DNA of 64,000 nucleotides, taken from the IMG/VR virus record IMGVR_UViG_3300032282_006516, positions 57,429 through 121,428 of that record, one strand, 5' to 3'. This DNA comes from a virus. The notes under the pieces are model-generated. The model searched no databases and was not told the origin of the DNA. It saw only the letters and a program-made list of their open reading frames with translations. Shown piece by piece: positions 18,042-61,704 of the stretch. Every line of letters starts with the position of its first letter. Within the stretch, counting starts at the first letter, position 1. A program made the translations under genes and the position numbers.

Positions 18042-18046
18042 CCGAG

Positions 18047-18367
18047 ATGAAACGTACTGCAAGACCCGATGTATTTGTGGGAGAACTTGTCTCTAGTGTG
18101 CAGCGCGCTGGTCCGGTTCTCACGGGCCAAACGACACTACAACCAGAGGCAGAGGGTGACGGATACTGCGGAACAATGCAGCTCGTGCCGAACGCTTTTC
18201 ACGCCAACGACTTAGGGCGGCGGGTCAAAGACGCTTTCGTCACGTTTGTTCGCGCGTACTGCCGTACCCAGGGATGGAGGCTTCGGGAGTTTCGCGTGAA
18301 GAAGAACTACGTCGAGTTCGCCATCGCCGCTTCAAGACCCCGGTCGAGTTCCAGCAAGAACCGCTGA
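18047..18367 (+). CDS. Possible hypothetical protein, convergently overlapping (106 aa)
   Basis: An ATG at 18047 opens 106 codons antisense to the terminase leader. The second half (FVTFVRAYCRTQGWRLREF, VKKNYVEFAIAA) has codon use and composition like real genes, and without it the 265 bases between the flanking leftward genes would be empty. The last 61 bases overlap the end of the convergent gene at 18307. There is no good Shine-Dalgarno site. An internal start at MQLVPNAF is possible. I give it less than even odds. Confidence 0.4.
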   Translation: MKRTARPDVFVGELVSSVQRAGPVLTGQTTLQPEAEGDGYCGTMQLVPNAFHANDLGRRVKDAFVTFVRAYCRTQGWRLREFRVKKNYVEFAIAASRPRSSSSKNR

Positions 18368-23812: not shown

Positions 23813-26800
23813 TCAGTAGTGATGTCCCGGTACATTCTTCAGATGCTCGCGTCCAGGCTGAAGTGATTGCTTCTGCGTCAGGCCAAACTCAGCGCCGAAC
23901 ACAACACCCGGAATGGGGTGCGTACCGTGGATGTGGGAAACCTCGCCAAGAGCAGCCGCATCCGCCAGGGTGGTGCGCAGCCTTTGATGCTGCAACTTCG
24001 CCATCCAGTCCTCTTGCAGCTCTAGTGGCATTACCGAAATACCCTTAAGCACCGGCTTGTGCTCGATGGGCTGAAGCCCCTGCTTAACAAGGTTCTGATT
24101 CATCCGATTCACAACGGACAGCGGACGGTACTCACCGCGAAGAACGCTGTCGTGGTCACCGGGATGCACGATCTCGGTCAGGTTACCCATGGCCTTGATA
24201 ACCGTCTCCACGTGCCGGCGCTTGATGCCTTCCTTCTCATAAAGACCGTAAATCTCGTTCGCCAGATGGTGCTGAACCTTGTCCATCGAACCCGTCGCTT
24301 CGTACAGGCGGTGCGGGTTCAGGATTGTTCGATTCGGGTCCGACAGGTGGTCGCCGGCCTCGACCTTGGCGCCAACCACGGGCGGGTTCCAGTGCGTGTA
24401 CCCCGCCACGGCTTCGGCGTTCGGCAGATTCTGGTGAAGCGGAAGACCGCCAGCGTCCTTACCGACGTGGTGTTTGCGGTTTCCGATAAACACGTCCACG
24501 CCAGTCGTCGTCGGCTCAATCTTGGTGATGGTGCCGCTCGTCATCGCAAGAGACGACTCGTTCGGGAGCTTTTGTGGCAGCGACATGAGCTGCTCAAACC
24601 GTGCGAACGAGTTCAGAATCTTCGAGCCGTGCTGCTCTCCGACGCCGCCGGTGTGGAAGCTCTTGAGCGTGAGCTGGATGGCGCGTTCGCCAACGGCATG
24701 CGCCGAGTGGACACCGATGTTCGTACCGAGGGCATACGGGTGCCCGCCCGAGTCCAAGCCCGAGCACTTCTGGCAGATGCCCTTCTCGCTCTCGCACTTG
24801 AGCGGGGAGCGCACCACGATTTTCGCGTCCTTCTTTGCCGCCCGAATCTTTCCCACAACGTCGGGGGTAAGAAGTGTGCCGGCCGGAAGATGAAGGCTAC
24901 CGTGCGTGAAATCTTGCTGCAGATGCCGGTCATGCACGTCGCGCTCGTTGATGTGTAGCGCGATGCCCTTGTCCGTGCCGCAGTCGTGTTCGTTCACCGT
25001 CAAGTGCATCATGTTGTTCATGAGCAGCTTGGACATGTACCCCGGCTCCTGAACCTCCTGCACCTTCATGACCGAGCCGCGACGAGCGCCGTGCATCTGC
25101 GTCCAGTACCCGCCGACATCAAGCCCTTCGGCGTAGCTCTTGGTGACCGGAGTGGGAATCTTCCGGTCCATCGAGTCTTTGTAAATCATCGGAGCGAGAA
25201 CCATCTGCTTGTACTGGTCCCACCCCGGCTTCACACCGGCCTTGTACATGGTGAAGAGGTTCGTCGGATTCTTCTCCAGCTTGGCCTCGTGCAGCGCACG
25301 CATGTCGCGTTCCGCCTTCTCGTAAACCGTCACGGCCTGGTGATCCTTCTCCGACTGCGACAGCCCCGGTTTGGCGTAAATCGCCGTCACCTTTTTGTGT
25401 GCTTCGTCGAGAGCCTGTGCCCGCGCTTGGCGGTCAGGAGTAAAGTCCTCCAACGACAACGTGTGTGCACCGACCGGAACAAAGACACCCTTTGTTTCGG
25501 TTGCAACGGGTGTCTTACCCACGGTCTTGGTCAAATCAAACGGATGCCCTGCGCTCGCAGACCGAGGGAGAGAGACCGAGCCGAACGCCATGCCGTTGCC
25601 CAGGTCTTTCAGCTGATTGACCGCAGTTCCGTACTCCGGAGTGTGGTCCTTCGCGATACGCGTGAGCAGGTTGTTGAGACCTGACTTGTCGATATGATAG
25701 TCCATCTTGTGCAGCACATCCTGCTGCATCCCGCTCGGCACGGCGCTCGCCATGAGAATACGACCCGCTGTGGTCGGCTTTCCGTTGAGATGCACGATGT
25801 CGTTGACGTGCAGGGTGCCCTTGCGTACCGCCTCAACGGCTTCGCCAGGATGCTTGACGGACTTACCTGAATCCTTCCCAACCAACGACAACTTATAGAG
25901 CCCGAGTGCGCTTTCCAAGGTCGGCTGGTACATGACCTGCCCCGTCGCTTCGCTGAACAGGTTGTTCGACGGAAACATTTTGTGTGCCTCCGCCACAGCC
26001 TCACGCGTGATCGGGACGTACGCGCTCATCGTGTCGCCGTCGAAATCGGCGTTGAAGCCACCCGTGACGAGCGGGTGAATCTTGATGGCGTTGCCTTCGA
26101 CTGGCTTCGGCTTAAACGCCTGGACACTGTACTTGTGCAGCGCCGGGTCGCGCTTGAGCAGCACCGGGCGCTCTTCCATCACCTTATCGAGCGCACGCCA
26201 CACCGCAGGCGTTTGTTTTGAGATGAGCGCAGGACCCTGAAGCTCATTTTGAATAGCACCCATGTCCTTGAGCTTCCTCACGACAAACGGGCGGTACAGG
26301 TCAAGCGCCGCATTCTTGGGCAAGCCCACTTCGTCCAGACCCAATGCCGGCTCAGGGACAATCGTAGACCGCATGGTCATGTCCTGACGCCGGTTAACGA
26401 GTACATCCTGGAAGTAGCCGTTCTTCGGAGAACTACCGGCAACCTGATGCAGCAAGCCCTTGTGCTTGGCGTCGGCGTACGACGTTCCCAAGCCAATAAT
26501 CGCCTTCACACCGTCGTAGTAATCCTGGCGCAGAGATTTCTTGTTCTCGTCCAGGGTGTGCCGGGCCAGAGTCGGATTCTTCAGTTGATCGTTGACCTTG
26601 GCGAAGTCCGAATACAACTGGTTGATGTCCGCGAACTTCAACGCGCCGCTCGGCATCGTCGACACCGGGCGCATGACCGGCGGAATGACCGGGATATTGT
26701 GAAGGATGTAGGCTTCGCTCGGCTTCATGTCGAGATCCTTCAAGGCGCGAAGGTACTTCACCTTCTTGAGCGTCTTGTCGATCTCTTGCGTCTTCGCCGT

Positions 26801-29800
26801 TTGCAGCGCCTTCTCCGCTTTGGGCAGTTCCTTTGCTACGTCGATGCGGTCCAGGAGGAGCTTGATACCGGCACCACCCGTCACCCCGGCCTTAGTGTCC
26901 GTAAGACCGCCATTCGCGGCAACGCCCTTTTCGCCGTGAATGACCGCCGTGAAGTCTTTAGCGGACAGACCCGTTAGATGCCGAATCGGCGCCTCAAACA
27001 AAGGATTCGGAAGCGGCTCGGCAAGCCCAATCCGCGTCCACTGACGACCGCCGTGCCCACCGGTCAGGTGCTCATCGAACAAGCCGCCCGGCTTCGGCAT
27101 GGGGTCGCCGTTCTTGTCCGTCTTCGACAGCAGCAAATCGGCCGGATTAGGCAACTCTTTCTTTGCCAGCTGTTTGATGTGCGCGTCCGTCAGAGGAGAA
27201 AGAACAAGGTCATGCCCCTTCTTCTCGATGTTGATTCCAGACCCTTTCAGCATGTCGGTGAACTTCTGAAAGGCAAATGTCGGCTTGGGCGTCGGTAGAG
27301 GCCCACCCGTTTGAATCGCTGCCCAAATCTTGTCGTGGTCCGAAGGCCAGCGTTTTGCCGGATTCGTTTGTGCGTCCGGGCCTTCCGCCTTGTACGTCTG
27401 CATCTCGCGGATGTTCGCCGTCGCACCGTGCGCCAACAGCGCGTAGAGGCCGAGCGTACCCATCGACTGTCCGCCCGTTCCCGAGCCACTAGCCGGCTGA
27501 AGGTTCAGGTCGTACGTCTCGTGCGCCCCGCCCGGCAAGTTCATACCAGACCGCACCGAGAGCTTCTTCTCAACCTGATGCACGAGCTTGAGGTGGTGCT
27601 GCGGCCCCACCATGACCTTGCCGAGGGGCTGCTTCGTCACCGGGTCGAACAGTTCCTCTGTATCCGTCAAACCGTGCGCTTTGAGGTCCGCGCGCACCTT
27701 TCCCAACGCATCCGTGTTTGGCTCAAAGTTCTTGACGATGTAGGGCTTGCCCGTCTTCTCGACGATTTTCCCCGCAGCAGTTTCAAGCAACTGACCGACG
27801 TTCATACGGCCCGGAACACCCGAAGGGTTGAGCGCAACCTCGATGTGCTTACCGTCTTTCGTGTGCGGCATCTCCTGGTCCGGGAGGATCATCGTGACGA
27901 TGCCCTTGTTGCCGTACCGACCCGCCATCTTGTCGCCGACCTGCATCGGCTCGATGGTCCGTACGTGCACCGCGAGACCGTCCTTGCCCTTATGTACCCC
28001 GACAACCTCTCCGGGGAACTCACTGTCCCAACGAAGGCTCTTGTCCGTGTGCGCTCCGCTCATGCTGCGGCGGATGGCGGCCAAACCAGTGCGGTCTTTG
28101 ATGTTGTACGGCTTCATGGCCGCGATCAAAGGGTCACCCGGATGAACCGTCTGTCCGATTCTCACCACGCCCGAATCGTCGAGCTTTTCCAGCTGTTCCT
28201 TCTTGAATACTCCTGGATGTTCAAGATGAAACTTCTTCTTGTTTAGAACAAGGTCATCATCAAGCGGGATAGCGTTCTTCTGAAGGTGTGCGCTGGAGAG
28301 CTTCTGCGCCGCGCTTTCCGAGATGACGATTCCGTCCTCAAAGTTGTAGCCCTTGAACGGGATGTACGCCGTGCGGAGGTTGGTTCCGAGGGCCAATACG
28401 CCGTTCCGCGCGTAGTTCGTGTCCGCGATAACCTGGCCGCTTGTCACCTTGTCGCCAACCTTGACCAGAGGCGTCGAGTGCAACACGCCCTTGGCATCGT
28501 TGAGCGGGTAGTTGTTGTAGAGCTGCACTTCGTGGTGCTGGCCCTTGGCGTCTTGAAGAACGACCGCGTCTTTCTTCAGTTCAACCACTTTTCCGCTCAC
28601 GGGTGCTTGGTGCGATGCCTGCTTACCGAGCAGCGCCTCGAACGTAGGCGTGCTTTGCATCCCCGTGCCCACCTGCACCAGCGGGGCTTGCCGGTGTACG
28701 AGCGAAATCGCCTGTTCCATCTGGCGGCTCGCCATTGATGCACGACCGCCGCTCGTGTTCCCAAGGAACGGAACGAGGTTCGAGGTCATATTGAAAAGCT
28801 GCCAAGCGTGGGGCATCGCGTACTGCGCATCCGACACCTTGCCGTCACGAATCGCCGTACCGGCGCTCATGCGAACGGTGTCGTGTAGGGGCTTTGGCGT
28901 GCCGCCTTCCCAGCGAATCTGGTCCGGGAGAATGATGTTGGAAGTCGCGAACTTGGTTGGCGACACCATCTCCATCGCATTCGTCTTGAGGTTGTAAAGG
29001 CGAATCTTTGCCTCGTTTCCCTCTTTACGAACCCCAAGCGGCAGCCGCAGCGTCACGCCCGTCTTCGCACCCTCAGGCGTATTGATGGGGTCGAGATACC
29101 CGAGATGGCTCGGGTTGACGAACTTCGCCTCGTCTTCGATGCTGCGCTCGCTCTTAATGCCGCCCGTACCCATGATGGTCGTCTGCATCGCGGACGAGAC
29201 CATTTCGACGGGATTGATTTGCGTAGCAACGCGTGCCGCGCTGTTCTTATGAAACACGTCCCTGACGGGCGTGTTGAACATGTCGAACTTGATGATTTCG
29301 CGAATGTCTTTCGCTCCATCAATTTTACGTGCCGTCTTTGCTCGAACCGTTCGTCCGGCCTCGCGCAGCTTGTCGAAGGCGTAGTCACCCGTCGTACGCA
29401 AGTCCTTGAACACGAGCGAGTCCCGGTCATCTTCGGGATGACCGACGCTGACTTTCAAAAGTTTTTCTGTGGCGAGCTTCAACGTGTCTCCCGTCACATG
29501 AGAGAACGGCTTGCCGAGTGTAATCTCCGTCGCATCCGGACGAAGGTTTGACGCGCCCATGACCTGATGGAAATGCGCTGCCGCTTCTTCTTTGCTCGGT
29601 GCAGCGGTCTTCTTGGAGGTCTTGTAGAACGCCTCCAGGGCCGTGTTGACGCCACGTGCGTTCTTATTGGCGTCGAGGACTTCTTTTCCCCACGCCTTTT
29701 CCAGCTCACCGTCACTAACGCCGAGCGTCTTCAAAAACGGGTACAGCGGCAGCGACGCCTTGCTCGACCCATACTGCATCGAGAAGGTCTTTTTGGCCGG

Positions 29801-30247
29801 GTCGAACACCGTATCAAACGCACGCGCGCCCTTGCCCGTGACGTTGAAGTGGTTCTCCAGCTCACCGTTCGGCCGGCGCCGCGAATAGACACCGGACTTG
29901 AGCTGCCACTGGTTATCGACCTGATACTCCTGCCCATCAAGAATGTAACTGTACCGACTCGTCGTCAGCGGCAGCTCGGCGATGCGCACGCGGCGTTGGT
30001 CCACAGCCGCGCCGGTGTTTTTGTCCTTAAGCGTGAGGTGCGCGTAAACCGGCGCCGCCCATGAGTCACCGGCTACTTTTGCTGCATGTTGCCCGCGAAG
30101 GTCGTCAGGGTGCTTGAGCTTCGACACCTCTAGCTTGTCCAAATGAAGCGTCTGCGTTTTCCCTTCGAGCGGGAAATGCGCACGAATTCCCTCCAAGACA
30201 CGGTCCTGGAGATGCTGGGCGGCTTCGTTGGGGTCGAGGTAGGCCAT
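23813..30247 (-). CDS. Single-chain multisubunit-type RNA polymerase, beta fused to beta-prime (2144 aa)
   Basis: Residues 1 to about 1040 follow bacterial beta: HLGYLDPINTPEG (381), GYNFEDGIVISE (633), GDKMAGRYGNKG (771) and the NPSGVPGRMNVGQLLE block. Residues 1050-2144 follow beta-prime: VIPPVMRP, the invariant NADFDGD metal site at 1399-1405, GLDVGGYW and GARRGSVMKVQEVQEPGYMS (bridge helix/trigger loop), Cys1756 with Cys1818/1825/1828 as the second zinc site, and SFHTGG. The beta-prime N-terminal zinc finger is missing. The length is well below the summed host subunits, so insertions are lost. Start ATG 30247 lacks a clear Shine-Dalgarno. No alpha, omega or sigma gene is visible in the window. 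It lies among virion genes, so packaging in the head is possible. Confidence 0.93.
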   Translation of the reverse strand: MAYLDPNEAAQHLQDRVLEGIRAHFPLEGKTQTLHLDKLEVSKLKHPDDLRGQHAAKVAGDSWAAPVYAHLTLKDKNTGAAVDQRRVRIAELPLTTSRYSYILDGQEYQVDNQWQLKSGVYSRRRPNGELENHFNVTGKGARAFDTVFDPAKKTFSMQYGSSKASLPLYPFLKTLGVSDGELEKAWGKEVLDANKNARGVNTALEAFYKTSKKTAAPSKEEAAAHFHQVMGASNLRPDATEITLGKPFSHVTGDTLKLATEKLLKVSVGHPEDDRDSLVFKDLRTTGDYAFDKLREAGRTVRAKTARKIDGAKDIREIIKFDMFNTPVRDVFHKNSAARVATQINPVEMVSSAMQTTIMGTGGIKSERSIEDEAKFVNPSHLGYLDPINTPEGAKTGVTLRLPLGVRKEGNEAKIRLYNLKTNAMEMVSPTKFATSNIILPDQIRWEGGTPKPLHDTVRMSAGTAIRDGKVSDAQYAMPHAWQLFNMTSNLVPFLGNTSGGRASMASRQMEQAISLVHRQAPLVQVGTGMQSTPTFEALLGKQASHQAPVSGKVVELKKDAVVLQDAKGQHHEVQLYNNYPLNDAKGVLHSTPLVKVGDKVTSGQVIADTNYARNGVLALGTNLRTAYIPFKGYNFEDGIVISESAAQKLSSAHLQKNAIPLDDDLVLNKKKFHLEHPGVFKKEQLEKLDDSGVVRIGQTVHPGDPLIAAMKPYNIKDRTGLAAIRRSMSGAHTDKSLRWDSEFPGEVVGVHKGKDGLAVHVRTIEPMQVGDKMAGRYGNKGIVTMILPDQEMPHTKDGKHIEVALNPSGVPGRMNVGQLLETAAGKIVEKTGKPYIVKNFEPNTDALGKVRADLKAHGLTDTEELFDPVTKQPLGKVMVGPQHHLKLVHQVEKKLSVRSGMNLPGGAHETYDLNLQPASGSGTGGQSMGTLGLYALLAHGATANIREMQTYKAEGPDAQTNPAKRWPSDHDKIWAAIQTGGPLPTPKPTFAFQKFTDMLKGSGINIEKKGHDLVLSPLTDAHIKQLAKKELPNPADLLLSKTDKNGDPMPKPGGLFDEHLTGGHGGRQWTRIGLAEPLPNPLFEAPIRHLTGLSAKDFTAVIHGEKGVAANGGLTDTKAGVTGGAGIKLLLDRIDVAKELPKAEKALQTAKTQEIDKTLKKVKYLRALKDLDMKPSEAYILHNIPVIPPVMRPVSTMPSGALKFADINQLYSDFAKVNDQLKNPTLARHTLDENKKSLRQDYYDGVKAIIGLGTSYADAKHKGLLHQVAGSSPKNGYFQDVLVNRRQDMTMRSTIVPEPALGLDEVGLPKNAALDLYRPFVVRKLKDMGAIQNELQGPALISKQTPAVWRALDKVMEERPVLLKRDPALHKYSVQAFKPKPVEGNAIKIHPLVTGGFNADFDGDTMSAYVPITREAVAEAHKMFPSNNLFSEATGQVMYQPTLESALGLYKLSLVGKDSGKSVKHPGEAVEAVRKGTLHVNDIVHLNGKPTTAGRILMASAVPSGMQQDVLHKMDYHIDKSGLNNLLTRIAKDHTPEYGTAVNQLKDLGNGMAFGSVSLPRSASAGHPFDLTKTVGKTPVATETKGVFVPVGAHTLSLEDFTPDRQARAQALDEAHKKVTAIYAKPGLSQSEKDHQAVTVYEKAERDMRALHEAKLEKNPTNLFTMYKAGVKPGWDQYKQMVLAPMIYKDSMDRKIPTPVTKSYAEGLDVGGYWTQMHGARRGSVMKVQEVQEPGYMSKLLMNNMMHLTVNEHDCGTDKGIALHINERDVHDRHLQQDFTHGSLHLPAGTLLTPDVVGKIRAAKKDAKIVVRSPLKCESEKGICQKCSGLDSGGHPYALGTNIGVHSAHAVGERAIQLTLKSFHTGGVGEQHGSKILNSFARFEQLMSLPQKLPNESSLAMTSGTITKIEPTTTGVDVFIGNRKHHVGKDAGGLPLHQNLPNAEAVAGYTHWNPPVVGAKVEAGDHLSDPNRTILNPHRLYEATGSMDKVQHHLANEIYGLYEKEGIKRRHVETVIKAMGNLTEIVHPGDHDSVLRGEYRPLSVVNRMNQNLVKQGLQPIEHKPVLKGISVMPLELQEDWMAKLQHQRLRTTLADAAALGEVSHIHGTHPIPGVVFGAEFGLTQKQSLQPGREHLKNVPGHHY

Positions 30248-48779: not shown

Positions 48780-50843
48780 ATGGGCTGGAATATCCGACTT
48801 CCGGATGCCGAGTGGTACGACCTCGGTGATCCGCGCCTTCCTGCACTCATCGACGAAGTCTGCGACCAAGACGTCGTCGCTATCGACACCGAGACCACAG
48901 GTCTCAAAATCTGGTTCGACAAGGTGCTGTTCTGGTCTCTTGCTTGGGGACCGCACCGCCGTGTGTGCATGCCCGCGCGCACCCTACCATTGTTCCAAGA
49001 CGCGTTCGCCGATGCGGGGAAGCGTTGGGTATTCGCGAACGCGAAGTACGACCTGCACATGCTCGCCAACTCTGGCGTGAACATCACGGGCGACGCGGTG
49101 GACACCGCCGTGATGCACGCGTTGCTCTACGAAGAAGAGAGCCACGCTCTCAAGGACATGGCGAAGCAGGTTCTCGGCTGGCGTTGGACCGACTTCTTCG
49201 ACACGTTCCAGGCGCAGAACGTCGACGACCTGTCGAAGTCGCCGAAGCGATTGCCAAGCGGGCTGTTCGTTCAGCCCACGCGCAAGGAAACCATCGAGGA
49301 GATGCTTCTGCGCTGCGCGCACGAAGACCTCCCACGCCTCGTCGACTACGCCTCCAACGACGCCTACGGCACGCTCCGGCTGTACGAGAAGCTACGGCAA
49401 GAGCTGCAAGACACGGCGATTTACTCGCTGTACCCGGACTGGCTTCCCGACATGGAAGCTCTGTTCTTCAAAACCGAGGTTCCGTTCACCCGCGTCCTCT
49501 GGGAGTGCGAGCGCAACGGCGTCTTCGTGAACCAAGAGTACCTACAACAACTGCGCGGTCCGATGTGGGCCGAGCACGAACAACTCAGCCGCGAAGCAGC
49601 TCGTCTCTGGCATGCCGCCGGATTCACCGAGGCGTTCAACCCGAACTCCACCGACCAGCTTCGTCGCTACTTCTTCGAGCATCTGCACCTCAAGCCGCTG
49701 ATGTTCACCAAGGGTGGCAAGAGCGGTGTTCGGACTCCCTCCGTGGATAAGGGATTCCTGGAGCGCTACGAGCACGAAAGCCCCATGGCGGCGCACCTGC
49801 TTCGTGACCGAAAGCTGACCAAGCTCATCGGCACGTACATCGACGGCGCCAACGAACACATCGACCCGAACGGGCGAATCCACACGCGGTTCAACCAAGA
49901 CGTAGCGCGGACGGGCCGCCTCTCATCAAGCAGCCCCAACTTGCAGAACATCCCCACGCCTGAGAAGGATAAGTTTCAACTGCGCGGTGCGTTCCAAGCG
50001 ACACCCAACTCGGGCAACACGCTGATCGTCGGCGACTACTCGCAGCTCGAAATGCGGTTGCTGGCGTGCGCTACCGTCACGCAGGCCAATCCCCGAGGCG
50101 CCGAGGAGATGATTCAAATCTTCCTCGACGGCAAGGACATCCACATGGGCAACGCCGCGATGGTCTTCGGCCCCATGGTCAAGCGCCAATATGGATGGGA
50201 CCTGACCTACGACTTCATCAAGGAGGCCAAGAAGGTCGACGGCAAGGTGAAGTCGGGCGAACTTCCTGAGAGCGCGCTCACCGACCAGCACCGCCTCGCT
50301 CTCGAAAAGCGAGTCCACATCAAGTCCGTAGGCTTCGGCCTGAACTACGGCATGAAGGAAAACAAGCTCGCTCGGCAGCTCGGCATCACGAAGGAAGAAG
50401 CGGCCAGCATCATCGAGGCGTACCTCGGAACCTACCCGGCGGTGAACGACTTCTACGCGGCGGCTATCGAAGAGACTCAAACTACTGGGTTTTCCTTCAC
50501 CCTGCTCGGACGCCGCCGGTTTCACCCCGGCATCGCAAGCCCGAACGCCCTCGACCGCTGGAGCGAGGAGCGCAAGGCCGTGAACAATCAGATCCAGGGA
50601 ACGGCTGCCGACGCTGTTCGTCTGGCGATGATTCGCATCGCGCAAGCGCGCCTCGACCGCAAGTACGGCTGCAAGATGCTGTTGCAGGTACACGACGAGT
50701 TGATGTTCGAGTGCCCGCAGGAAACTGCGGAGGAAGCTCGGGCTGAGATTCAACGCATCATGGAGCACCCGTTCCCGACCGACCTCGCCGTTCCGCTCGA
50801 TGTAAGCATCGGCATCGGCCCGTCCTGGAACAAAGCAAAATGA
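48780..50843 (+). CDS. Family A DNA polymerase with 3'-5' exonuclease (687 aa)
   Basis: The replicative polymerase. Exonuclease: DTETTG near residue 36, NAKYDLHML near 96 and YASNDAYGTLRLYE near 195. Polymerase: RLSSSSPNLQNIP, motif A VGDYSQLEMRLL near 417, motif B (O helix) KSVGFGLNYGMKENKLARQL near 518, motif C VHDELMF near 636. It lacks the 5' nuclease domain, as in T7-type enzymes. Motif B has the GLNYG wording. The start follows AGAGGAC. It ends in an ATGA overlap with the HU-like gene. Confidence 0.95.
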   Translation: MGWNIRLPDAEWYDLGDPRLPALIDEVCDQDVVAIDTETTGLKIWFDKVLFWSLAWGPHRRVCMPARTLPLFQDAFADAGKRWVFANAKYDLHMLANSGVNITGDAVDTAVMHALLYEEESHALKDMAKQVLGWRWTDFFDTFQAQNVDDLSKSPKRLPSGLFVQPTRKETIEEMLLRCAHEDLPRLVDYASNDAYGTLRLYEKLRQELQDTAIYSLYPDWLPDMEALFFKTEVPFTRVLWECERNGVFVNQEYLQQLRGPMWAEHEQLSREAARLWHAAGFTEAFNPNSTDQLRRYFFEHLHLKPLMFTKGGKSGVRTPSVDKGFLERYEHESPMAAHLLRDRKLTKLIGTYIDGANEHIDPNGRIHTRFNQDVARTGRLSSSSPNLQNIPTPEKDKFQLRGAFQATPNSGNTLIVGDYSQLEMRLLACATVTQANPRGAEEMIQIFLDGKDIHMGNAAMVFGPMVKRQYGWDLTYDFIKEAKKVDGKVKSGELPESALTDQHRLALEKRVHIKSVGFGLNYGMKENKLARQLGITKEEAASIIEAYLGTYPAVNDFYAAAIEETQTTGFSFTLLGRRRFHPGIASPNALDRWSEERKAVNNQIQGTAADAVRLAMIRIAQARLDRKYGCKMLLQVHDELMFECPQETAEEARAEIQRIMEHPFPTDLAVPLDVSIGIGPSWNKAK

Positions 50844-51328
50844 CCGACGCCGCCGTCAAGAAAATACACATCGACGAAGAGGTGGCCGACATCCTTGGAA
50901 AGAAACCCCGAGAGGTGTCGGTCATCACAACCGCTTTTTTCGACGAGGTCGTTCGCGCCCTCGCCGATAAAGGTAGCGTTCACATCCCGCAGCTGGGCAC
51001 GCTCAAAGTCGTTGCCCGGCACGGCGTGGTCACCCCACGAACACAGCTCACGTCCTTTGACGGGAAAAAGCGCGTCGTTCGCGTCCCGCTAAAGTACTAC
51101 GTCACGCTGAGTAAATCGGCGAAACTACGGAGTGCGCTAAATCGTTGGTGCACTCCCCCTCGAAAGGAAACGGTCATGGAGAAGTACGGTGTCGATGAGT
51201 CCGCCGACGAGCGGCTGGAAAAGCAAGCGTCGGACGGCTGCCCCAAGTGCGGCAAGAAACCGCTCGTGCACGGTCGCGTGCTGATGTGTCCGACCCACGG
51301 GTCGGAGCCGTTCGAGACGAAGAAGTAG
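50840..51328 (+). CDS. HU/IHF-like protein fused in frame to a zinc ribbon (162 aa)
   Basis: Residues 1-105 match HU/IHF: VITTAFFDEVVRALADKGSV, HIPQLGTLKVVARHG, the flexible arm, then KYYVTLSKSAKLRSAL. Residues 113-162 are a second domain with CPKCGKK and CPTHGSEPFE, which forms a zinc ribbon. There is no stop between them, but an internal ATG at 51176 has AAAGGA eight bases upstream. The second domain could therefore be made alone as well as fused. HU-like proteins bend DNA in replication or packaging. Confidence 0.75.
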   Translation: MTDAAVKKIHIDEEVADILGKKPREVSVITTAFFDEVVRALADKGSVHIPQLGTLKVVARHGVVTPRTQLTSFDGKKRVVRVPLKYYVTLSKSAKLRSALNRWCTPPRKETVMEKYGVDESADERLEKQASDGCPKCGKKPLVHGRVLMCPTHGSEPFETKK

Positions 51329-51359
51329 TTTTCTCCCCAACCCCAGGAGCCATACCAAC

Positions 51360-52649
51360 ATGCCGCGCACTCCGGTCAACGAACTCAACAAGAAGCTCGC
51401 CCAACTCGAAGCCAAGCTCAATCGCAGCCCTGAAGCCAAGGGCGCGAAGGTGATGACGGACATCGACCAATCGCCAAACACTTACTTCCTGCGTCGCCCC
51501 TCCGGCATCATGCCGCTCGACCTCGACACGGGTGGCGGCTTGCCCGCCGGAGGGCTGACGTACCTGTCCGGACCGGACGGCGCGGGTAAGACGTTCCTGC
51601 TCTACAAGTACATCGCGATGAACCAGAAGCTCTACGGAGAGCGTTCTGCCGTCGCGCTCGCCGTCAGCGAGGCGGCTCCCGACCACTTCTTCATGCGGAA
51701 GTGCGGGGTGCAGATTGCGATCCCGGAAACGATGCTGGAGGAGCGCATCAACGAGCGGAAGGAGCGTGGGCTCCCGAGCTTCACCAAGGAACAGCTTCGG
51801 GAGTTCCGGTCGAAGACGGTCGGCACCGTCAAGCTCCTGCGTGGTGCTCATGGCGAGGAGCTGCTCGGAGCCGTGCTGGAGTGCTTCGACGCCGGCATCT
51901 TCGACATCATCGCTCTCGACTCGGTGTCGGCTGTGCTGCCTGAAGCCGATGCGGGCAAGGACCTGGATGAGCCCGGAAAGCGCGCCGCCGCGGCAGGCAT
52001 GCTGACGAAGTTCTTCCAGCACTACCTCAACGGGACGACCGGCTACTACGGCCTGAACCCGACGACGGTCATCTTCACGTCGCAGGTCCGGTCGAACAGC
52101 AAGAAGGCCGAAGCCCCGGCCCACATCCAGAAGTACCTGCCCGACTACGCTCCGCAAGGCGCGTGGGCGGCGAAGCACGGCAAGCTCATCGACATCCTCG
52201 TCAAAGGCGGCGCCAAGGAGAAGGAAGAGGTCAAGGTTGCCCCCAGCAGCCTTGGAGAGCTTGCGGCGCAGCAACGCAACAAGCGCGTTCAGGTCGGCAA
52301 GACCGTTCAGTACGAAGTGCTGAAGGGTAAGGCGGGCGTTCACGAGGGCATCACGGGGGAGTTCGAGTTCCACTTCCCCGCCAGCGCCACCGAGATGAAC
52401 GACCCCTCGAAGCTGCTGACGGAGGACCAGCGCATGGTGCTCGTCTCCGCTATGCAGCGCGGCATCCTCTTCGAGCGCGAGGGCTTGGTGACGGTCTACG
52501 ACCTCGCTACGCAGCAGCCTTACCCGAACCTGAAGGACATCGCCGGTATCAACCGGCTGGTCGACATGATGCGCGCCGACTTCGAGTTGGAACTCATGCT
52601 CCGCCGCGCGGTACTCAGCGCCGCGGCAATCGAATGCGCGTATCGCTGA
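51360..52649 (+). CDS. RecA/UvsX-like recombinase (429 aa)
   Basis: The strand-exchange ATPase. Walker A GPDGAGKT at 71-78 in the LTYLSGPDGAGKTFLLYKYI setting, Walker B FDIIALDSVSA (Asp187), and VIFTSQVRSNSK for the region before loop L2. The N-terminal 35 residues form a helix likely used for polymerisation. It is longer than UvsX, with a C-terminal helical part. It heads a run of recombination nucleases and overlaps the next gene by 16 bases. Confidence 0.88.
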   Translation: MPRTPVNELNKKLAQLEAKLNRSPEAKGAKVMTDIDQSPNTYFLRRPSGIMPLDLDTGGGLPAGGLTYLSGPDGAGKTFLLYKYIAMNQKLYGERSAVALAVSEAAPDHFFMRKCGVQIAIPETMLEERINERKERGLPSFTKEQLREFRSKTVGTVKLLRGAHGEELLGAVLECFDAGIFDIIALDSVSAVLPEADAGKDLDEPGKRAAAAGMLTKFFQHYLNGTTGYYGLNPTTVIFTSQVRSNSKKAEAPAHIQKYLPDYAPQGAWAAKHGKLIDILVKGGAKEKEEVKVAPSSLGELAAQQRNKRVQVGKTVQYEVLKGKAGVHEGITGEFEFHFPASATEMNDPSKLLTEDQRMVLVSAMQRGILFEREGLVTVYDLATQQPYPNLKDIAGINRLVDMMRADFELELMLRRAVLSAAAIECAYR

Positions 52650-53182
52650 GTGTTGAGGCTCGGCTCGGGACCTGCGCCAAGTGCGCGGGTTCCGGGCCGG
52701 TCATCCCCTTCACACTCATCGCAGACGACCAAGCAGGAGAGGCCGAAGCGCTCTGCGCCGCGTGCCTCTTCACGCCGAATGGTCTGCGTGTCGACGTGCC
52801 CATGGAACCGCTCGTTTCGGGACCGGTCAGTCGACGGAAGGGCCTGCGTAAGGCCAAGAAGACCTCACAACGCCAAGAGGTCGACATCGCCGAAGAACTC
52901 GGTGGACGCACGCAACCCGGCTCCGGGAACCAACCCGGAGCCAAGGGCGACATCCGGAAAAAGGGAGAGCTTCGAGTCGAAGCGAAGTTCACCTCCGCCA
53001 ACTCCTTCAGCCTCAAGCTCGACGAACTCTACAAAATCGCCGGAGAGTGTGGAGTCGGTGAGAAGCCCGTCTTTGTCATCGACTTCCTCGAACCGGGTAC
53101 AAGAAAACCGAAGGACCGCTTTGCGGTCATCCACTTCCACGACCTGAAGGAGCTACTAAATGCCGCTGGCGAGCATCGCTGA
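52634..53182 (+). CDS. Zinc finger fused to Hjc-like PD-(D/E)xK nuclease (182 aa)
   Basis: Residues 14-44 hold CAKC and CAAC, a zinc pair. Residues 80-182 match Holliday junction resolvase-like nucleases: QEVDIAEELGG, GRTQPGSGNQPGAKGD with Asp106, and LRVEAKFT with Glu116 and Lys118 as the PD-(D/E)xK site. It probably cuts branched recombination intermediates made by the upstream recombinase. An independent RusA-like resolvase is encoded downstream. Confidence 0.78.
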   Translation: MRVSLSVEARLGTCAKCAGSGPVIPFTLIADDQAGEAEALCAACLFTPNGLRVDVPMEPLVSGPVSRRKGLRKAKKTSQRQEVDIAEELGGRTQPGSGNQPGAKGDIRKKGELRVEAKFTSANSFSLKLDELYKIAGECGVGEKPVFVIDFLEPGTRKPKDRFAVIHFHDLKELLNAAGEHR

Positions 53183-54038
53183 TCTAAACGGACCGACCGA
53201 AGAAGTCATTCGCTGCGTGGAAATGGCGAAGGAACTGTCCAGCCTCTACGACGACTACATCGTCCTCGACCAAGACGACGGCGGACACCGGGCTCCTGGC
53301 ATCCATGCCTCCGAGCTTTACCCCTGCCTTCGCAAGTCCGTGTACTCCGTGCTCGGGACGCCGAAGAAGCCGCACGTAGCCAAGTTCTGGAAGCAGCGCT
53401 TCAAGGTCGGAACGGCCGTGCACACGATGATGCAGGAAGACTTCCACAAAATGGCGAAGCGCTCTCAACAGGGCAAAGCCATGCGGGTCGCGGAAGACGC
53501 GGCAAACAAGATGAACTGCATCCTGGAGTTTGAGGATGAGGTTCGAGTTCACCCGAGCAAGCAAGCGATTGCAGCACGCTACAAGCTGCACTCTAGCTGC
53601 GATGGTGTGTTCACCTTCCGTGACAAGACCACGAACGAAGTGGTTCTGCGTGTGGGCCTCGAAATCAAGACGGAGGCCCCTGACGGCTACGAAAAGCTGA
53701 AGGAGCCGAAGAAGGAGCACGTCCGGCAGGCGCACATCTACATGGCTTGCCTGGACCTACCCCTCATGTGGTTCCTCTACATGAACAAGGGAAACCAGAA
53801 CAACACGGGCTCTGCCGCCCCGTGGCTTGTCACTTGGCAGCCGCAGGTGTGGGCTGAACTGGAGGAGCGCTGCAAGACCGTCCTCGACTTCGCGGAACGG
53901 AACGAGCTTCCCGACCGCACCGAGACGATGGTCTGCGAGTTCTGCCCATGGAGCTACACCTGCCAGCCAAGCAACATGACACGAGCGTTCCAGCGCCCAA
54001 ACAACCGTCGCGAATCCATCCGCAAACCAGGAACCTGA
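53160..54038 (+). CDS. Cas4/RecB-like Fe-S exonuclease (292 aa)
   Basis: A PD-(D/E)xK nuclease of the Cas4/AddB type. HASELYPCLRKSVY (Cys56), GTAVHTMMQED (His88), SSCDGVF (Asp148), VGLEIKTE (Glu168, Lys170) and HVRQAHIYMACLD as the QxxxY-like motif. CEFCPWSYTC (259/262/268) together with Cys56 can hold a 4Fe-4S cluster. It should resect DNA ends for the RecA-like protein. It overlaps the previous gene by 23 bases. No CRISPR array is present nearby. Confidence 0.85.
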   Translation: MPLASIADLNGPTEEVIRCVEMAKELSSLYDDYIVLDQDDGGHRAPGIHASELYPCLRKSVYSVLGTPKKPHVAKFWKQRFKVGTAVHTMMQEDFHKMAKRSQQGKAMRVAEDAANKMNCILEFEDEVRVHPSKQAIAARYKLHSSCDGVFTFRDKTTNEVVLRVGLEIKTEAPDGYEKLKEPKKEHVRQAHIYMACLDLPLMWFLYMNKGNQNNTGSAAPWLVTWQPQVWAELEERCKTVLDFAERNELPDRTETMVCEFCPWSYTCQPSNMTRAFQRPNNRRESIRKPGT

Positions 54039-54039
54039 C

Positions 54040-54660
54040 ATGCGCAACCCACACATCGGGGGACTTTCGCTCCCCAAAGACATCGGCATCTCCGCCAGCA
54101 CTGCGCAAGCTATCGAAAGCCAGTGGAGCACGATCTCGGACGTGGACGCACAACTGGCAAAGCAAGGTATCCACGCAAACCAGGAGCCGGATGTCGAGTG
54201 CCCTGACGTCACGGCCGAAGCGCTACTCACGCCGGACGTGGCAGCCTACACGCGCGTCTTCTCCGCCCAGCTGCGCTGGTACAACTACGTCACCCGTCTC
54301 CTGGCGGACGTGCGCGCTCTGCTGCTGCAAGTCGACAACGAGATGGACGACATCGCCGCGGCGAAGCGCACACACTTCCGGCAGCTCAACGAGGGACGTA
54401 CCAAGACCGACCGCATGAGCGTCGGCGAGATGGACGACCTCATCCTTCAAGACCCGCACTACCGCGACTTGAAGCTGCAGCGGCAAAAGCTGGAGCAGCA
54501 GCGCATGAAGCTCGACGCCTGGGAGTCGACGCTCGACAAGAACCTCAAGACGGTCTCTCGCCAAATCGAGAACCGCAAGGCCGAGGTTACGGGCGGCAGC
54601 CGCGAGAACAACATGCCCGGCCACGCCGCCGGTCGGTGGGAGCAGCGGTTCGCTCGATGA
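54040..54660 (+). CDS. Coiled-coil recombination-block protein (206 aa)
   Basis: Not recognised. The middle and C-terminal parts form long helices (AAYTRVFSAQLRWYNYVTRL, YRDLKLQRQKLEQQRMKLDA, ESTLDKNLKTVSRQIENRKA). The N-terminus MRNPHIGGLSLPKDIGISAS is less regular. It follows the Cas4-like gene by one base and overlaps rusA as ATGA. It may be an accessory to the recombinase or nuclease. Confidence 0.5.
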   Translation: MRNPHIGGLSLPKDIGISASTAQAIESQWSTISDVDAQLAKQGIHANQEPDVECPDVTAEALLTPDVAAYTRVFSAQLRWYNYVTRLLADVRALLLQVDNEMDDIAAAKRTHFRQLNEGRTKTDRMSVGEMDDLILQDPHYRDLKLQRQKLEQQRMKLDAWESTLDKNLKTVSRQIENRKAEVTGGSRENNMPGHAAGRWEQRFAR

Positions 54661-55103
54661 TTCGACTGGAACTGCCGTGGTTGCCCCCCAGCACCAACCA
54701 CGCCTACATCAACAACGGATTCGGGGGACGCTCGCTTTCAAAAGAAGGGCGGGCGTTCCTCACCAAGACCAAGGCGCATTTTGCACAGCGCTACCCGCGC
54801 GAGATGACTGTCTTTCGACCGGACAAGCCGTACCTGATTGTCATCCGCTTCTTCTTCGAGGACATCGAGACGAAGGGGTTCCGGACAGGAAAAGCAAAGA
54901 ACCGGTATAAGACGTTTGACGGCGGCAACCGCACCAAGCTGCTCGAAGACGCACTCAAAGACGCGGGCGGCATCGACGACTCGCAGACCATGACGTCCGT
55001 CTGGCAGAAGGTGCAGGGGCGGCCTGAGCGCACGGTCCTCTGGGCATGGAGCTTGGAGGAAGAAGGAACCCCATTCGATGAGCTACTCCAGCAGCTCACC
55101 TGA
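54657..55103 (+). CDS. rusA: RusA-like Holliday junction resolvase (148 aa)
   Basis: The RusA fold is shown by LPWLPPSTNHAYIN at the start, SLSKEGRAFLTKTKA, then KTFDGGNRTKLLEDALKDAG with Asp88 and nearby acidic residues, and GIDDSQTM with Asp107-Asp108. RusA cuts four-way junctions as a dimer. I start at ATG 54657, overlapping the previous stop. The last 26 bases overlap the next gene. Confidence 0.82.
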   Translation: MIRLELPWLPPSTNHAYINNGFGGRSLSKEGRAFLTKTKAHFAQRYPREMTVFRPDKPYLIVIRFFFEDIETKGFRTGKAKNRYKTFDGGNRTKLLEDALKDAGGIDDSQTMTSVWQKVQGRPERTVLWAWSLEEEGTPFDELLQQLT

Positions 55104-55455
55104 CGAGTATCGAGCACTATTCGAGGCCTGCAACCGAACGGAGCTGTATCAAATCGCCCGGGCCGCAGGGTTTCCTGTTCCGCCCGGGAGCACCCGAAGC
55201 GAACTCATCTCCATCATCATCTACGAGAAGGAATGCCTCAACGTCCCGCCCGACATCGACGAGTGGCGGCGCGCAATCATGCGGTTTCTCATCGACCACC
55301 GCCGGGTGCTGGAGACGCAAATCACCTGCCCCGCCAAGTCGTTTGAAGAGGACGCATGCTTCACCTGCATTGATACGCAGGTGGTTCACTGCCTGAGCAG
55401 CAACGGTACTGAGAACTTCAAACTCATCGAACTCCGAAAGAAGAAGAAGCCATGA
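55078..55455 (+). CDS. SAP-like domain protein (125 aa)
   Basis: Residues 8-45 (EYRALFEACNRTELYQIARA, AGFPVPPGSTRSELISIII) look like a SAP/HeH helix-extended loop-helix motif that binds DNA. The rest is helical with CFTCIDTQVVHC near the C-terminus, possibly metal-binding, and a Lys-rich tail. It is coupled to both neighbours. A DNA-binding accessory role in recombination is plausible. Confidence 0.55.
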   Translation: MSYSSSSPDEYRALFEACNRTELYQIARAAGFPVPPGSTRSELISIIIYEKECLNVPPDIDEWRRAIMRFLIDHRRVLETQITCPAKSFEEDACFTCIDTQVVHCLSSNGTENFKLIELRKKKKP

Positions 55456-56171
55456 GCGCAGAACCGAACGTCCCCGTCGCCGCAGCCCCCCGCAACATCG
55501 ACGGCCTCGTCAAAATCACGCCCTTCAAGCTGCGCATCCTCGCGCAGAGCCTGGGCGGGTTGGAGAGCCCCGAGCAGAAGCATGCGTGGCACACCACGCT
55601 TTCGACCCAGGAGGCACGAGCGGGGTACGTGCTTGACCTGCTGACCGAGCATGACCGGAAGAACGGTGGGCCGCCCGCACCTCCGCCGCCGCCGGTCGTG
55701 CAGCCCATGGCCATGCCGGCACCTGCCGAAGTGGCTCCTGCCGCACTGGCTGCGGCTGCCGCGGCTGCGGTGGAAAAGCCGCGTGCCCGCCGCTCGCCGG
55801 CAACCGCTACCGCAGACGCTGCTCCGGCCGTTCCGCCTCCGCCTGCGGACCTGGGGACCGACATCCTCAACCTGCTGGCGAAGGTCGCGGCAGGAACGGA
55901 GGCCAACACGAACGCGCTCGGGGCGTTCGACCGCCGCGTGGTGAACGTGCTGAACGAGCAGGCCGAGCGCATCGCGCGGCTAGAGGCGCTCACCATGGAC
56001 CTGGCGGAGAAGCTGAAGGCGTCGCAGCAGCTGCAGACGTGGACGCTGACCGCGTTCCTCACCTTCATGCAGGAGAGCATGCAGGCCAGCACGGCGGACC
56101 TCGTCTCGGCGGCTATCGCTGACTCGGCGCAGCTCGAAGCGCTGGTCAAGCAGGCCACGGGAAAAGGATAG
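55452..56171 (+). CDS. Helical Ala/Pro-rich protein with -1 frameshift site at its end (239 aa)
   Basis: Not recognised. The N-terminal domain is PFKLRILAQSLGGLESPEQK, followed by a Pro/Ala linker (about 75-135) and a coiled coil (VNVLNEQAERIARLEALTMD, LAEKLKASQQLQTWTLTAFL). The frame-0 product ends GKG*. Six bases before the stop is G GGA AAA in the correct phase, a canonical -1 slippery heptamer. It probably makes both a short and a long product. Confidence 0.65.
   Translation: MSAEPNVPVAAAPRNIDGLVKITPFKLRILAQSLGGLESPEQKHAWHTTLSTQEARAGYVLDLLTEHDRKNGGPPAPPPPPVVQPMAMPAPAEVAPAALAAAAAAAVEKPRARRSPATATADAAPAVPPPPADLGTDILNLLAKVAAGTEANTNALGAFDRRVVNVLNEQAERIARLEALTMDLAEKLKASQQLQTWTLTAFLTFMQESMQASTADLVSAAIADSAQLEALVKQATGKG
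56159..56165 (+). other. Slippery heptamer G GGA AAA
   Basis: GGGAAAA lies in phase X XXY YYZ in the frame of the 239-residue protein, two codons before its TAG. A CTGG/CCAG pair and ACGCC/GGCGT arms downstream could form a stimulating structure. The next feature describes the resulting -1 reading frame. Confidence 0.6.
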
Positions 56172-56368
56172 ACGCCGTACTCGATGACTGCTGGCCGGGG
56201 TGCTCCAGGGCGTTCAACGTCGACGTACTCGTCTTCGACAACTCCCTGGACACCCTGAGCGACGCATCCGTCATCGACCTCGCGCACCGAGTCGGGGTCC
56301 TGGTAGACGAAGAAGCCAGGTTCCCCGACTTGGTGCGGGTACGGCTCAAACGAAACGAGGCTCCATGA
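56165..56368 (+). CDS. -1 frame extension of the 239-residue gene (67 codons; total about 305 aa)
   Basis: This frame reads RIDAVLDDCWPGCSRAFNVD, VLVFDNSLDTLSDASVIDLA and HRVGVLVDEEARFPDLVRVR to a TGA that overlaps the next ATG as ATGA. Third positions are almost all G or C, as in real genes here. From its opening after a TGA at 56120 until base 56330 the frame has no ATG, GTG or TTG, so ribosomes must enter by frameshift, or from a rare start such as CTG or ATA. The alternative frame is Arg-rich and unconvincing. Confidence 0.6.
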   Translation, partial: RIDAVLDDCWPGCSRAFNVDVLVFDNSLDTLSDASVIDLAHRVGVLVDEEARFPDLVRVRLKRNEAP

Positions 56369-56700
56369 AACGCTATGTAGTTCTCGCCCTGGCCTTGGCC
56401 GGGTGCGACCATGCCCCGAAATGCCAAGAACTCGACGCGGGCGTCATGGCCTGCGCCACGGCGACCATCGTGCGGTGGGAGTACAAGACCATCGCGGTCG
56501 AGGCCCCGTTCGACCAGTACATCACGCTAGATGAGGGGCGCCTCGACGCCCTTGGAATGGAGGGCTGGGAACTGGTCTCGACGTGGGTCGAGCCGGAAAG
56601 CTCCGTGCTCGGATTCAGCGATGTCGAGTACACGACAGGTGTTGCCCCGCGGGTTCGTCCCGTGAGGGCGACGCTGCTGTTCAAGCGACCCGTGTGGTGA
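56365..56700 (+). CDS. Lipoprotein, DUF4177-like (111 aa)
   Basis: A signal peptide with lipobox MKRYVVLALALAGCDHAPKC is clear, so the mature protein should be anchored at Cys14. The body has VRWEYKTIAVEAPFD, LDALGMEGWELVSTWVEPES, the Y...L...G.EGWELVS pattern of DUF4177 proteins. An exported phage lipoprotein could block superinfection or aid lysis; this is inference. It starts with an ATGA overlap and is followed by a strong terminator. Confidence 0.7.
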   Translation: MKRYVVLALALAGCDHAPKCQELDAGVMACATATIVRWEYKTIAVEAPFDQYITLDEGRLDALGMEGWELVSTWVEPESSVLGFSDVEYTTGVAPRVRPVRATLLFKRPVW

Positions 56701-56984: not shown

Positions 56985-57529
56985 GTTGCCGCACTCCGCC
57001 GTGCAGGAGCGCCGATACCCCCAACGATTGGCCCGCCCTGAGCGTCGCGAAGTTGCCACGTGAGGAGCGGCGTGATGCCGTCGTCATCGAAGAGAATCAG
57101 CGTACCCGGATTGCCAGGGGTCTCTTCCATGCGGTTCGTCAGCGCCTTGCGAAGCAGCACCGTATCTCCGCCGCTGCCCAGCGCCACGACCAGTAGCACG
57201 TCTTGGTCAGCACCCTTGCCGACGACCGAGTCCAGGCCGTACTCCGCCACGAACGCGTCGCCCGTGTTGGGCGTCGGCACCAGCGCGGTCATGTCCACGA
57301 GCGTCTGGTACGTCCCGCGCTCGGTCTCGCCAAGCAGTGCGTACTTCGTGGTCCAGCCGCCGGTCTTGAACTGATTGTCTGCGAAATCGAGGTAGCTATC
57401 CGGCGTCGCTGCAGACCGAAGCGCCACAACAGGCGCCTGCCCGGTCACACCGCCTACGCCCTCCTGTGTCACCGTGAGAACGAGAGGCACCGCGATGTTG
57501 GTGGCTTCTACGACGAGCGACAAACCCAT
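56981..57529 (-). CDS. Tail-fibre-region protein (182 aa)
   Basis: The ATG at 57529 (MGLSLVVEATNIAVPLVLTV) is used; a TTG six codons earlier would lie next to the hairpin stem. The chain is beta-rich with GERGTYQTLVDMTAL-like and VVGKGADQDVLLVVALGSGG segments. No enzyme motif is seen. Its place after the fibre gene suggests a fibre tip, adaptor or chaperone. Confidence 0.5.
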   Translation of the reverse strand: MGLSLVVEATNIAVPLVLTVTQEGVGGVTGQAPVVALRSAATPDSYLDFADNQFKTGGWTTKYALLGETERGTYQTLVDMTALVPTPNTGDAFVAEYGLDSVVGKGADQDVLLVVALGSGGDTVLLRKALTNRMEETPGNPGTLILFDDDGITPLLTWQLRDAQGGPIVGGIGAPARRSAAT

Positions 57530-60840: not shown

Positions 60841-61704
60841 TTACTCCTTGTGCATCCAGGGCTGCGGAAAAAGGTTGGGCCAACGACGGACACACAGCCG
60901 CCGCCAAGCCCGCGCGAATCGTCGAATCTCCAGGTCGGCCACCTCGTTCTCACGCTCGCGAACGAACTTGGCGATGGCCGCAGGGTTGGTCGTCCAGAGG
61001 AACGAGGTCTCGGCCTGATGCGGAAGAAAGCTCGAAGCGGCTTCGTAGATGCGCTTCCGCTCCATGCCCTTCGGGGCGCTGCCGTTTTGCTCCGTGTAGA
61101 AGCGCGTGTCGTCGAGCACCGCGTTGAGGTACGCCTCGTAACTCGTCTCCATCGCCTGCCGGAACCGCGCCTGCAGCAGCGGGCTGTCGGCGTAGCGCAG
61201 GGGCTCGACGAAGTAGCCGTAGTGATGCGTGAACCGCGTCGACTCCTGACTGGGGTTGCCCTCTTCGTCGCGGTCGGCTCCGACGTAGTTTCGGATGATT
61301 TCGTGGCTCACACGCCGTGACACGCCCGCGAAGAAGAAGGTCATCTTCGCGTGGTAGAGAATGCTGGCGTGGGCGACGTCGCCTTCTTGCGTGTGGCGGA
61401 TGTACTCCGCGTTGCTCTTCCGCCCCGCCTTCACGCCGAAGCTGTCGTAGCACTTGCGCCCAGCCAGCTCGACGAGCAGCTCGTTGGCCGTCAACTCGCG
61501 GTTCGTGTCCGCATCGACGCCCTCGTGTGGAAAGAGTGCCAGCCACCGAGGCGGGGCGAGCGGGTTCTCATCAAAAGGCGGTAGGCACTCAGGGCGATGC
61601 GACTGCACCCACTCCATCATGTCCTCGACGCCCAACGTCGAGAGCTGCATCTCGGCGATGGGAATGATGGTGGGATCGCCCCGAAGAATCGTGACGTTAC
61701 TCAT
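60841..61704 (-). CDS. thyX: Flavin-dependent thymidylate synthase ThyX (287 aa)
   Basis: It makes dTMP from dUMP using FAD and folate. Motifs fit ThyX: HASILYHAKMTFFFAGVSRR, VSHEIIRNYVGA, and NPSQESTRFTHHYGYFVEP, in which SQESTRF matches the NExSxRY part of the ThyX signature. GMERKRIYEAASSFLPHQAE and FLWTTNPAAIAKFV follow as the C-terminal half. The classic RHRxxS start is SRRVSHEI here. It has its own ATAAG element and hairpin leader. Confidence 0.85.
   Translation of the reverse strand: MSNVTILRGDPTIIPIAEMQLSTLGVEDMMEWVQSHRPECLPPFDENPLAPPRWLALFPHEGVDADTNRELTANELLVELAGRKCYDSFGVKAGRKSNAEYIRHTQEGDVAHASILYHAKMTFFFAGVSRRVSHEIIRNYVGADRDEEGNPSQESTRFTHHYGYFVEPLRYADSPLLQARFRQAMETSYEAYLNAVLDDTRFYTEQNGSAPKGMERKRIYEAASSFLPHQAETSFLWTTNPAAIAKFVRERENEVADLEIRRFARAWRRLCVRRWPNLFPQPWMHKE

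Follow-up and report, generated by a model that had tools for sequence, protein, structure and literature searches.

The window analyzed here is a stretch of 64,000 nucleotides, corresponding to positions 57429–121428 of an uncultured virus record of 121,428 bases. A recombination operon occupies its plus strand (Table 1), and at the start of this operon lies a 687-aa ORF (48780–50843) that we take to encode a family-A-like DNA polymerase. The 125-aa protein encoded near the 3′ end of the operon has a SAP/HeH-like N-terminal half, recognized by eye, and a conserved Cys-containing segment (CPAKSF..ACFxC); a Pfam search with the window's copy gave no match. It is followed by the gene studied here, P239, and then by a short lipoprotein-like ORF. 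A relative of the latter also lies 3′ of the extension in the related contig L002, but no counterpart was found in contig L004, which places this ORF outside the operon core. On its minus strand, opposite to this operon, the window encodes the terminase large subunit (phrog_675, E 6e-51; 16197–18062) and a 2144-aa ORF (23813–30247, minus strand) that matches several RNA polymerase beta-subunit PHROGs and carries an NADFDGD catalytic motif at residue 1399. Judged by these matches, the 2144-aa ORF is the putative single-chain multisubunit-type RNA polymerase of the phage. An ORF at 60841–61704 (minus strand) may encode a ThyX-type thymidylate synthase, which it resembles by eye.

Table 1. Features of the recombination operon and of the P239 junction in the window.
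Feature	Position	Strand	Basis or remark
HU (Pfam Bac_DNA_binding), RecA/UvsX-like, Holliday junction resolvase, Cas4-type exonuclease, coiled-coil protein, RusA	50840..55103	+	syntenic operon, listed in gene order
125-aa conserved partner gene, directly upstream of P239	55078..55455	+	
P239 0-frame gene, 239-aa short product	55452..56171	+	ORF, AF2 model, homologues
Slippery heptamer G_GGA_AAA, in phase	56159..56165	+	in-phase heptamer in 26/27 phages
−1 extension, 67 codons + TGA	56165..56368	+	tblastn matches, dN vs dS
0-frame stop TAG, one codon past heptamer	56169..56171	+	
S1 outer stem, 5′ arm (GCCGTACTCG), predicted	56174..56183	+	8 nt past heptamer
S2 inner helix of three-way junction, predicted	56186..56268	+	consensus fold
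WPG motif (W-P-G-C) near extension start	56192..56203	+	alignment of relatives
S3 inner hairpin (CACCGAGTCGGGG / CCCCGACTTGGTG), predicted	56285..56335	+	abuts S1 3′ arm
S1 outer stem, 3′ arm (CGGGTACGGC), predicted	56336..56345	+	about 150 nt past the 5′ arm
Next gene, short lipoprotein-like ORF	56365..56700	+	ATG overlaps extension stop by ATGA

The P239 frame ends in ACG GGA AAA GGA TAG, with a single codon (GGA) between the heptamer and the stop. The last upstream stop of the −1 frame is at 56120–56122, and the frame is open from 56123 to the TGA at 56366–56368. Its 67 post-slip codons (56165–56365) run into an ATGA overlap with the ATG at 56365 of the next gene, and the fusion of the two frames measures 305 aa, 238 from the 0 frame and 67 from the −1 frame. 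The earlier note, made from the letters of the DNA, had described a 239-residue frame, 67 further codons and the ATGA overlap, and it had placed GGGAAAA in phase at the frame end; the coordinate check bears out each of these points. It had also held that the extension has no usable start codon, and indeed, from the stop at 56120–56122 to the WPG motif, the −1 frame of the window contains no ATG, GTG or TTG. The single near-start there is an ATA at 56168, overlapping the TAG; an AUA start was considered and rejected, as the same position is CTA in L002 and L004.

The plain string GGGAAAA is no more frequent in the window than expected (6 observed, 7 expected), so the evidence lies in its phase, place and conservation. 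A scan of every end of ORFs of at least 80 aa in four pieces of the 121-kb record identified six X_XXY_YYZ sites, all types counted, that lead into a −1 frame of at least 40 codons; only one of the six is GGGAAAA. An SD-like stimulator upstream of the heptamer is absent from 15 of 26 phages, the window among them, and is present in the other 11. Such an element is not conserved; it is optional for −1 frameshifting, so its absence is not disqualifying.

Searched directly, the 239-aa and 68-aa sequences matched nothing in viral contigs or named phages. The neighboring exonuclease identified three contigs at 66–69% identity, two of which (L002 and L003) differ by one base in 20.9 kb of the locus. 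In these contigs P239 is only approximately 36% identical (tblastn), the extension is 64–70% identical in its own −1 frame, and the two are joined at the same GGGAAAA. Profiles of the extension, of RusA and RecA, and of the 125-aa protein retrieved further contigs with the same operon. Across the relatives, tblastn matches to the extension at the homologous position range from 36 to 70% identity. The first set comprised 13 distinct phages, all with an in-phase GGGAAAA at the junction. A last scan, made with the exonuclease profile only, added 13 phages with the heptamer in phase (L049, L051, L054, L055, L058, L059, L060, L061, L062, L065, L067, L070 and L072) and one, L066, in which the junction is covered and the in-phase heptamer is missing. 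Named phages held no close relative of the operon, only weak RecA and exonuclease matches.

Altogether, 26 of 27 distinct uncultured phages have an in-phase heptamer followed by a −1 extension (22 with GGGAAAA and 4 with GGGAAAC). The 27 include the window and share the operon HU–RecA/UvsX–resolvase–exonuclease–RusA–SAP-like–P239 with the junction covered. Three contigs that end before the site (L053, L057 and L068) were left out, and near-identical contigs were counted once (leaving out L003, L025, L050, L052, L063, L064, L069, L071 and L073). Elsewhere in the same operons, in-phase G_GGA_AAA or G_GGA_AAC occurs 4 times in 33,921 codons. The GK dipeptide encoded by the heptamer makes up two of only six invariant columns in the alignment of 13 members, which are 20–46% identical. 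In these GC-rich operons GGA accounts for 9–24% of Gly codons and AAA for 4–36% of Lys codons. The product of the frequencies of GGA, AAA and G at the preceding wobble position is 0.0025–0.0145 per phage, values that are not to be multiplied across phages because the relatives share ancestry. The G_GGA_AAC form is found at L054:10034, L055:10069, L060:10525 and L061:10043, and an AAG ending in none of the 26 phages, in which the stop often follows the heptamer immediately. In the exceptional phage (L066:9990–10100) a WPG-type extension lies in the −1 frame without a canonical heptamer (CAG AAG AAA GCC TAA).

These relatives bear on the possibility that an assembly error, or a real frameshift mutation, interrupts a normally continuous gene. 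A single additional A in the AAAA run would fuse the frames; none of the relatives, however, has a continuous frame, and the interruption falls at an in-phase heptamer in 26 distinct phage contigs. The comparison effectively refutes this reading, to which we assign a negligible likelihood. The earlier note had asked whether related phages keep the heptamer and the frame, and all but one of the 27 keep both. Transcriptional slippage, in which the polymerase would realign on the A run and yield a fusion mRNA, likewise relies on runs at the junction. The run here is only four A (three A in four phages), whereas runs that support such slippage often have eight or more (PMC3711429), and the codon phase is conserved, a feature that transcription does not require. 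We regard this route as extremely improbable.

A separate small protein, translated by termination–reinitiation from a non-standard start, has to be weighed with more care. The ATA of the window overlaps the TAG, and two phages have an ATG start at the stop (L028, GGGAAAATGA; L059, GGGAAAATAATG). The ATA, however, is the codon that reads CTA in two relatives, and in most relatives the stretch of −1 frame that begins at −150 and ends at the W of the motif contains no ATG, GTG or TTG; outside L028 and L059, the only such codon is a GTG in L016, L030, L049 and L067. Re-initiation, moreover, needs no in-phase G_GGA_AAA or G_GGA_AAC, yet nearly all the phages have one. Two separate genes are therefore very unlikely, if somewhat less so than the readings above. 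A normal start codon in homologues, which the earlier note had named as the sign of a separate gene, was found as an ATG at the junction in only 2 of 26 phages. In these two, the heptamer is followed by ATGA (L028:7365–7374) or by TAATG (L059:10364–10375). There, re-initiation could possibly add to slippage or replace it, and an evolutionary switch between both is conceivable.

The extension shows the marks of a coding sequence, as had been proposed. In pairwise comparisons there are more changes at third positions of the −1 codons, and dN is below dS in every pair (0.28 versus 0.62 for the window and L002; 0.34 versus 1.69 for the window and L031). By this measure, the −1 extension is evolving as a protein, under purifying selection. 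The WPG motif is common to nearly all relatives, including L049 and L051 with extensions of 24 aa. Most widely kept is W-P-G-x-x-x-P with an acidic position after it, and the extensions of L049 and L051 hold little beyond it. Variants of the motif are LAG (L023), WAG (L028), WPC (L030) and WPN or WPS (L055, L058, L060 and L061). Three phages (L027, L059 and L062) have shorter tails of 48–50 aa; since these recur in three phages, we take them as a real variant and not as errors.

The RNA of the extension was folded next to shuffled controls. The MFE of the window extension is −107.6 kcal/mol, lower than in 1000 of 1000 shuffles that keep the protein and the codon counts (z −7.2); a repeat run gave z −7.1, with 0 of 400 synonymous-codon shuffles as low. 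In 10 of 12 phages the extension has z ≤ −2.1, with values from −5.2 to −1.2 in phages other than the window, and 38 control tiles of the operon have a mean z of −1.4 and a minimum of −5.2. In 25 of 26 phages, the 110 nt past the heptamer fold more stably than the average for the locus (median z −1.8). In the clade of the window, the RNA is predicted to form a three-way domain of about 170 nt, with stem S1 as its closing stem. The window, L002, L004 and L031 all have a stem 6–8 nt past the heptamer that pairs approximately 150 nt downstream, with S2 and S3 inside; in the first three this stem begins at +8 with a pair probability of about 0.9–1.0. In the alignment of these four sequences 91% of cells pair, against 35–47% when the sequences are slid, a contrast that is to some extent expected, since these four sequences also served to predict the structure. 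Covariation is weak (2 two-sided pairs; 143 of 500 shuffles reach as many). Related long-range stems with a shifted register occur in L009, L010 and L030. In these three and the four phages above, 5–22% of synonymous shuffles reach the long-range pairing (about 10% in each close phage). A search of Rfam gave no match. The fold predictions thus point to a probable three-way RNA structure, which may act as a frameshift stimulator.

The AlphaFold2 model of P239 has an N-terminal helical domain (about residues 8–71; pLDDT approximately 95 for residues 11–70), a disordered Pro/Ala-rich linker, a long coiled-coil helix (residues 134–210) and two short C-terminal helices that lead into the shift site. 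A fold search with the long protein gave no significant match. For most extension tails AlphaFold2 predicts three short helices (34–44, 49–53 and 55–64; mean pLDDT 77). Foldseek listed HeH/LEM, Rho_N and SAP among weak matches to the tail, all with E > 2 and none significant, and Pfam had no match to the extension. The tail that most extensions carry may be helix-extension-helix-like. No family in Pfam, PHROGs or PDB sequence searches fits P239 or its extension, and P239 is a new phage protein family without annotation.

Could P239 be a gpG/gpGT-type tail assembly chaperone pair displaced into another operon? The heptamer is of the same class, and Phage_TAC_7 matches one of 13 members near its C-terminus, although below threshold (E 0.0067; 16.9 bits, cut-off 25). 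The 12 other members, however, have no TAC match, no PHROG matches, the Pro/Ala linker and coiled coil are unlike TAC, and the synteny with recombination genes is constant. The terminase of the phage (16197–18062) is on the other strand, and the neighbors of the site, the recombination operon and, downstream, convergent genes, are unlike a position just upstream of a tape measure gene. We consider a displaced chaperone scarcely credible. The site had been reported to sit among recombination genes and not tail chaperones, which agrees with the lack of any tail-chaperone family match above threshold.

We conclude, with a probability of roughly 0.92, that a conserved programmed −1 ribosomal frameshift lies at the end of the P239 gene. 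This reading is based on the heptamer, its phase, the open −1 frame, the missing start, conservation and the purifying selection on the extension; the slippage itself and its rate are inferred. In a large group of uncultured phages, one gene of the recombination operon appears to give rise to two forms of its protein. Most ribosomes would make the 239-aa protein and terminate at the TAG. A fraction would slip back by one base on G_GGA_AAA, with tRNA-Gly and tRNA-Lys re-pairing with GGG and AAA, and would produce the 305-aa fusion; the structured RNA downstream would aid slippage. The two isoforms share the coiled coil and may mix in one oligomer, in which the minority long form would recruit a partner through its WPG/helix-extension-helix tail. 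This partner, a protein or a nucleic acid, would probably belong to the recombination machinery. That an ancient, near-universal frameshift sets the isoform ratio in a widespread uncultured lineage, while the whole extension gene also serves as a three-way-junction RNA that regulates slippage, we put at even odds.

Phage frameshifts are known mainly for virion parts and have not previously been tied to P239. If the reading is true, a conserved switch based on translational recoding would operate in the DNA metabolism of phages and not in virion assembly, and phages would fix isoform ratios there too. Gene callers will miss or mis-split the P239 gene in all these genomes. The finding gives a route into a protein family without annotation, and it can be tested directly in E. 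coli because the heptamer is near-invariant and the cassette small. No report of a frameshift site in such an operon was found in a search of open-access full text, which is not proof of novelty, or in the PRFect predictor paper (PMC10885494). The reviewed phage frameshifts are mostly in tail chaperones, capsid and tail tube proteins, with cro of phage A2 as the regulatory exception (PMC5009743). G_GGA_AAA is one of the X_XXY_YYZ heptamers, a class measured in E. coli, where G_GGA_AAG is among the most efficient (PMC4066793).

One close parallel is with the tail assembly chaperones of dsDNA phages (lambda gpG/gpGT), where a −1 frameshift yields a minor fusion and is conserved across divergent phages (PMC5009743). 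Like them, P239 has an X_XXY_YYZ heptamer close to where the upstream frame ends, a −1 extension and conservation across divergent phages, but it is a different gene, without homology above threshold, in a recombination operon. A large downstream RNA is predicted in P239, whereas some tailed-phage shifts seem to lack stimulators (PMC5009743). In IS911 the −1 stimulator is a three-way-junction RNA past the heptamer (Rettberg et al. 1999, as described in PMC4066793 and PMC5009743), and an RNA of this shape is predicted 3′ of the heptamer here; unlike P239, IS911 adds an upstream SD-like element. The predicted outer stem in P239 lies wholly within the extension gene and closes about 170 nt, longer than the 17–140 nt of the stimulator length rule (PMC4066793). 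The csoS2 gene of α-carboxysomes also gives two frameshift-made isoforms of a protein with disordered parts, and has a complex stem-loop on the 3′ side, with a 5′ SD stimulator apparently absent (PMC5009743). It has no homology to P239 and encodes a cellular organelle scaffold, compared with a phage protein with a coiled coil. In the major capsid protein of T3/T7 and the head proteins of Lactobacillus phage A2, a −1 shift likewise yields a C-terminally extended isoform (PMC5009743); those are virion proteins, whereas the P239 gene belongs to a recombination operon.
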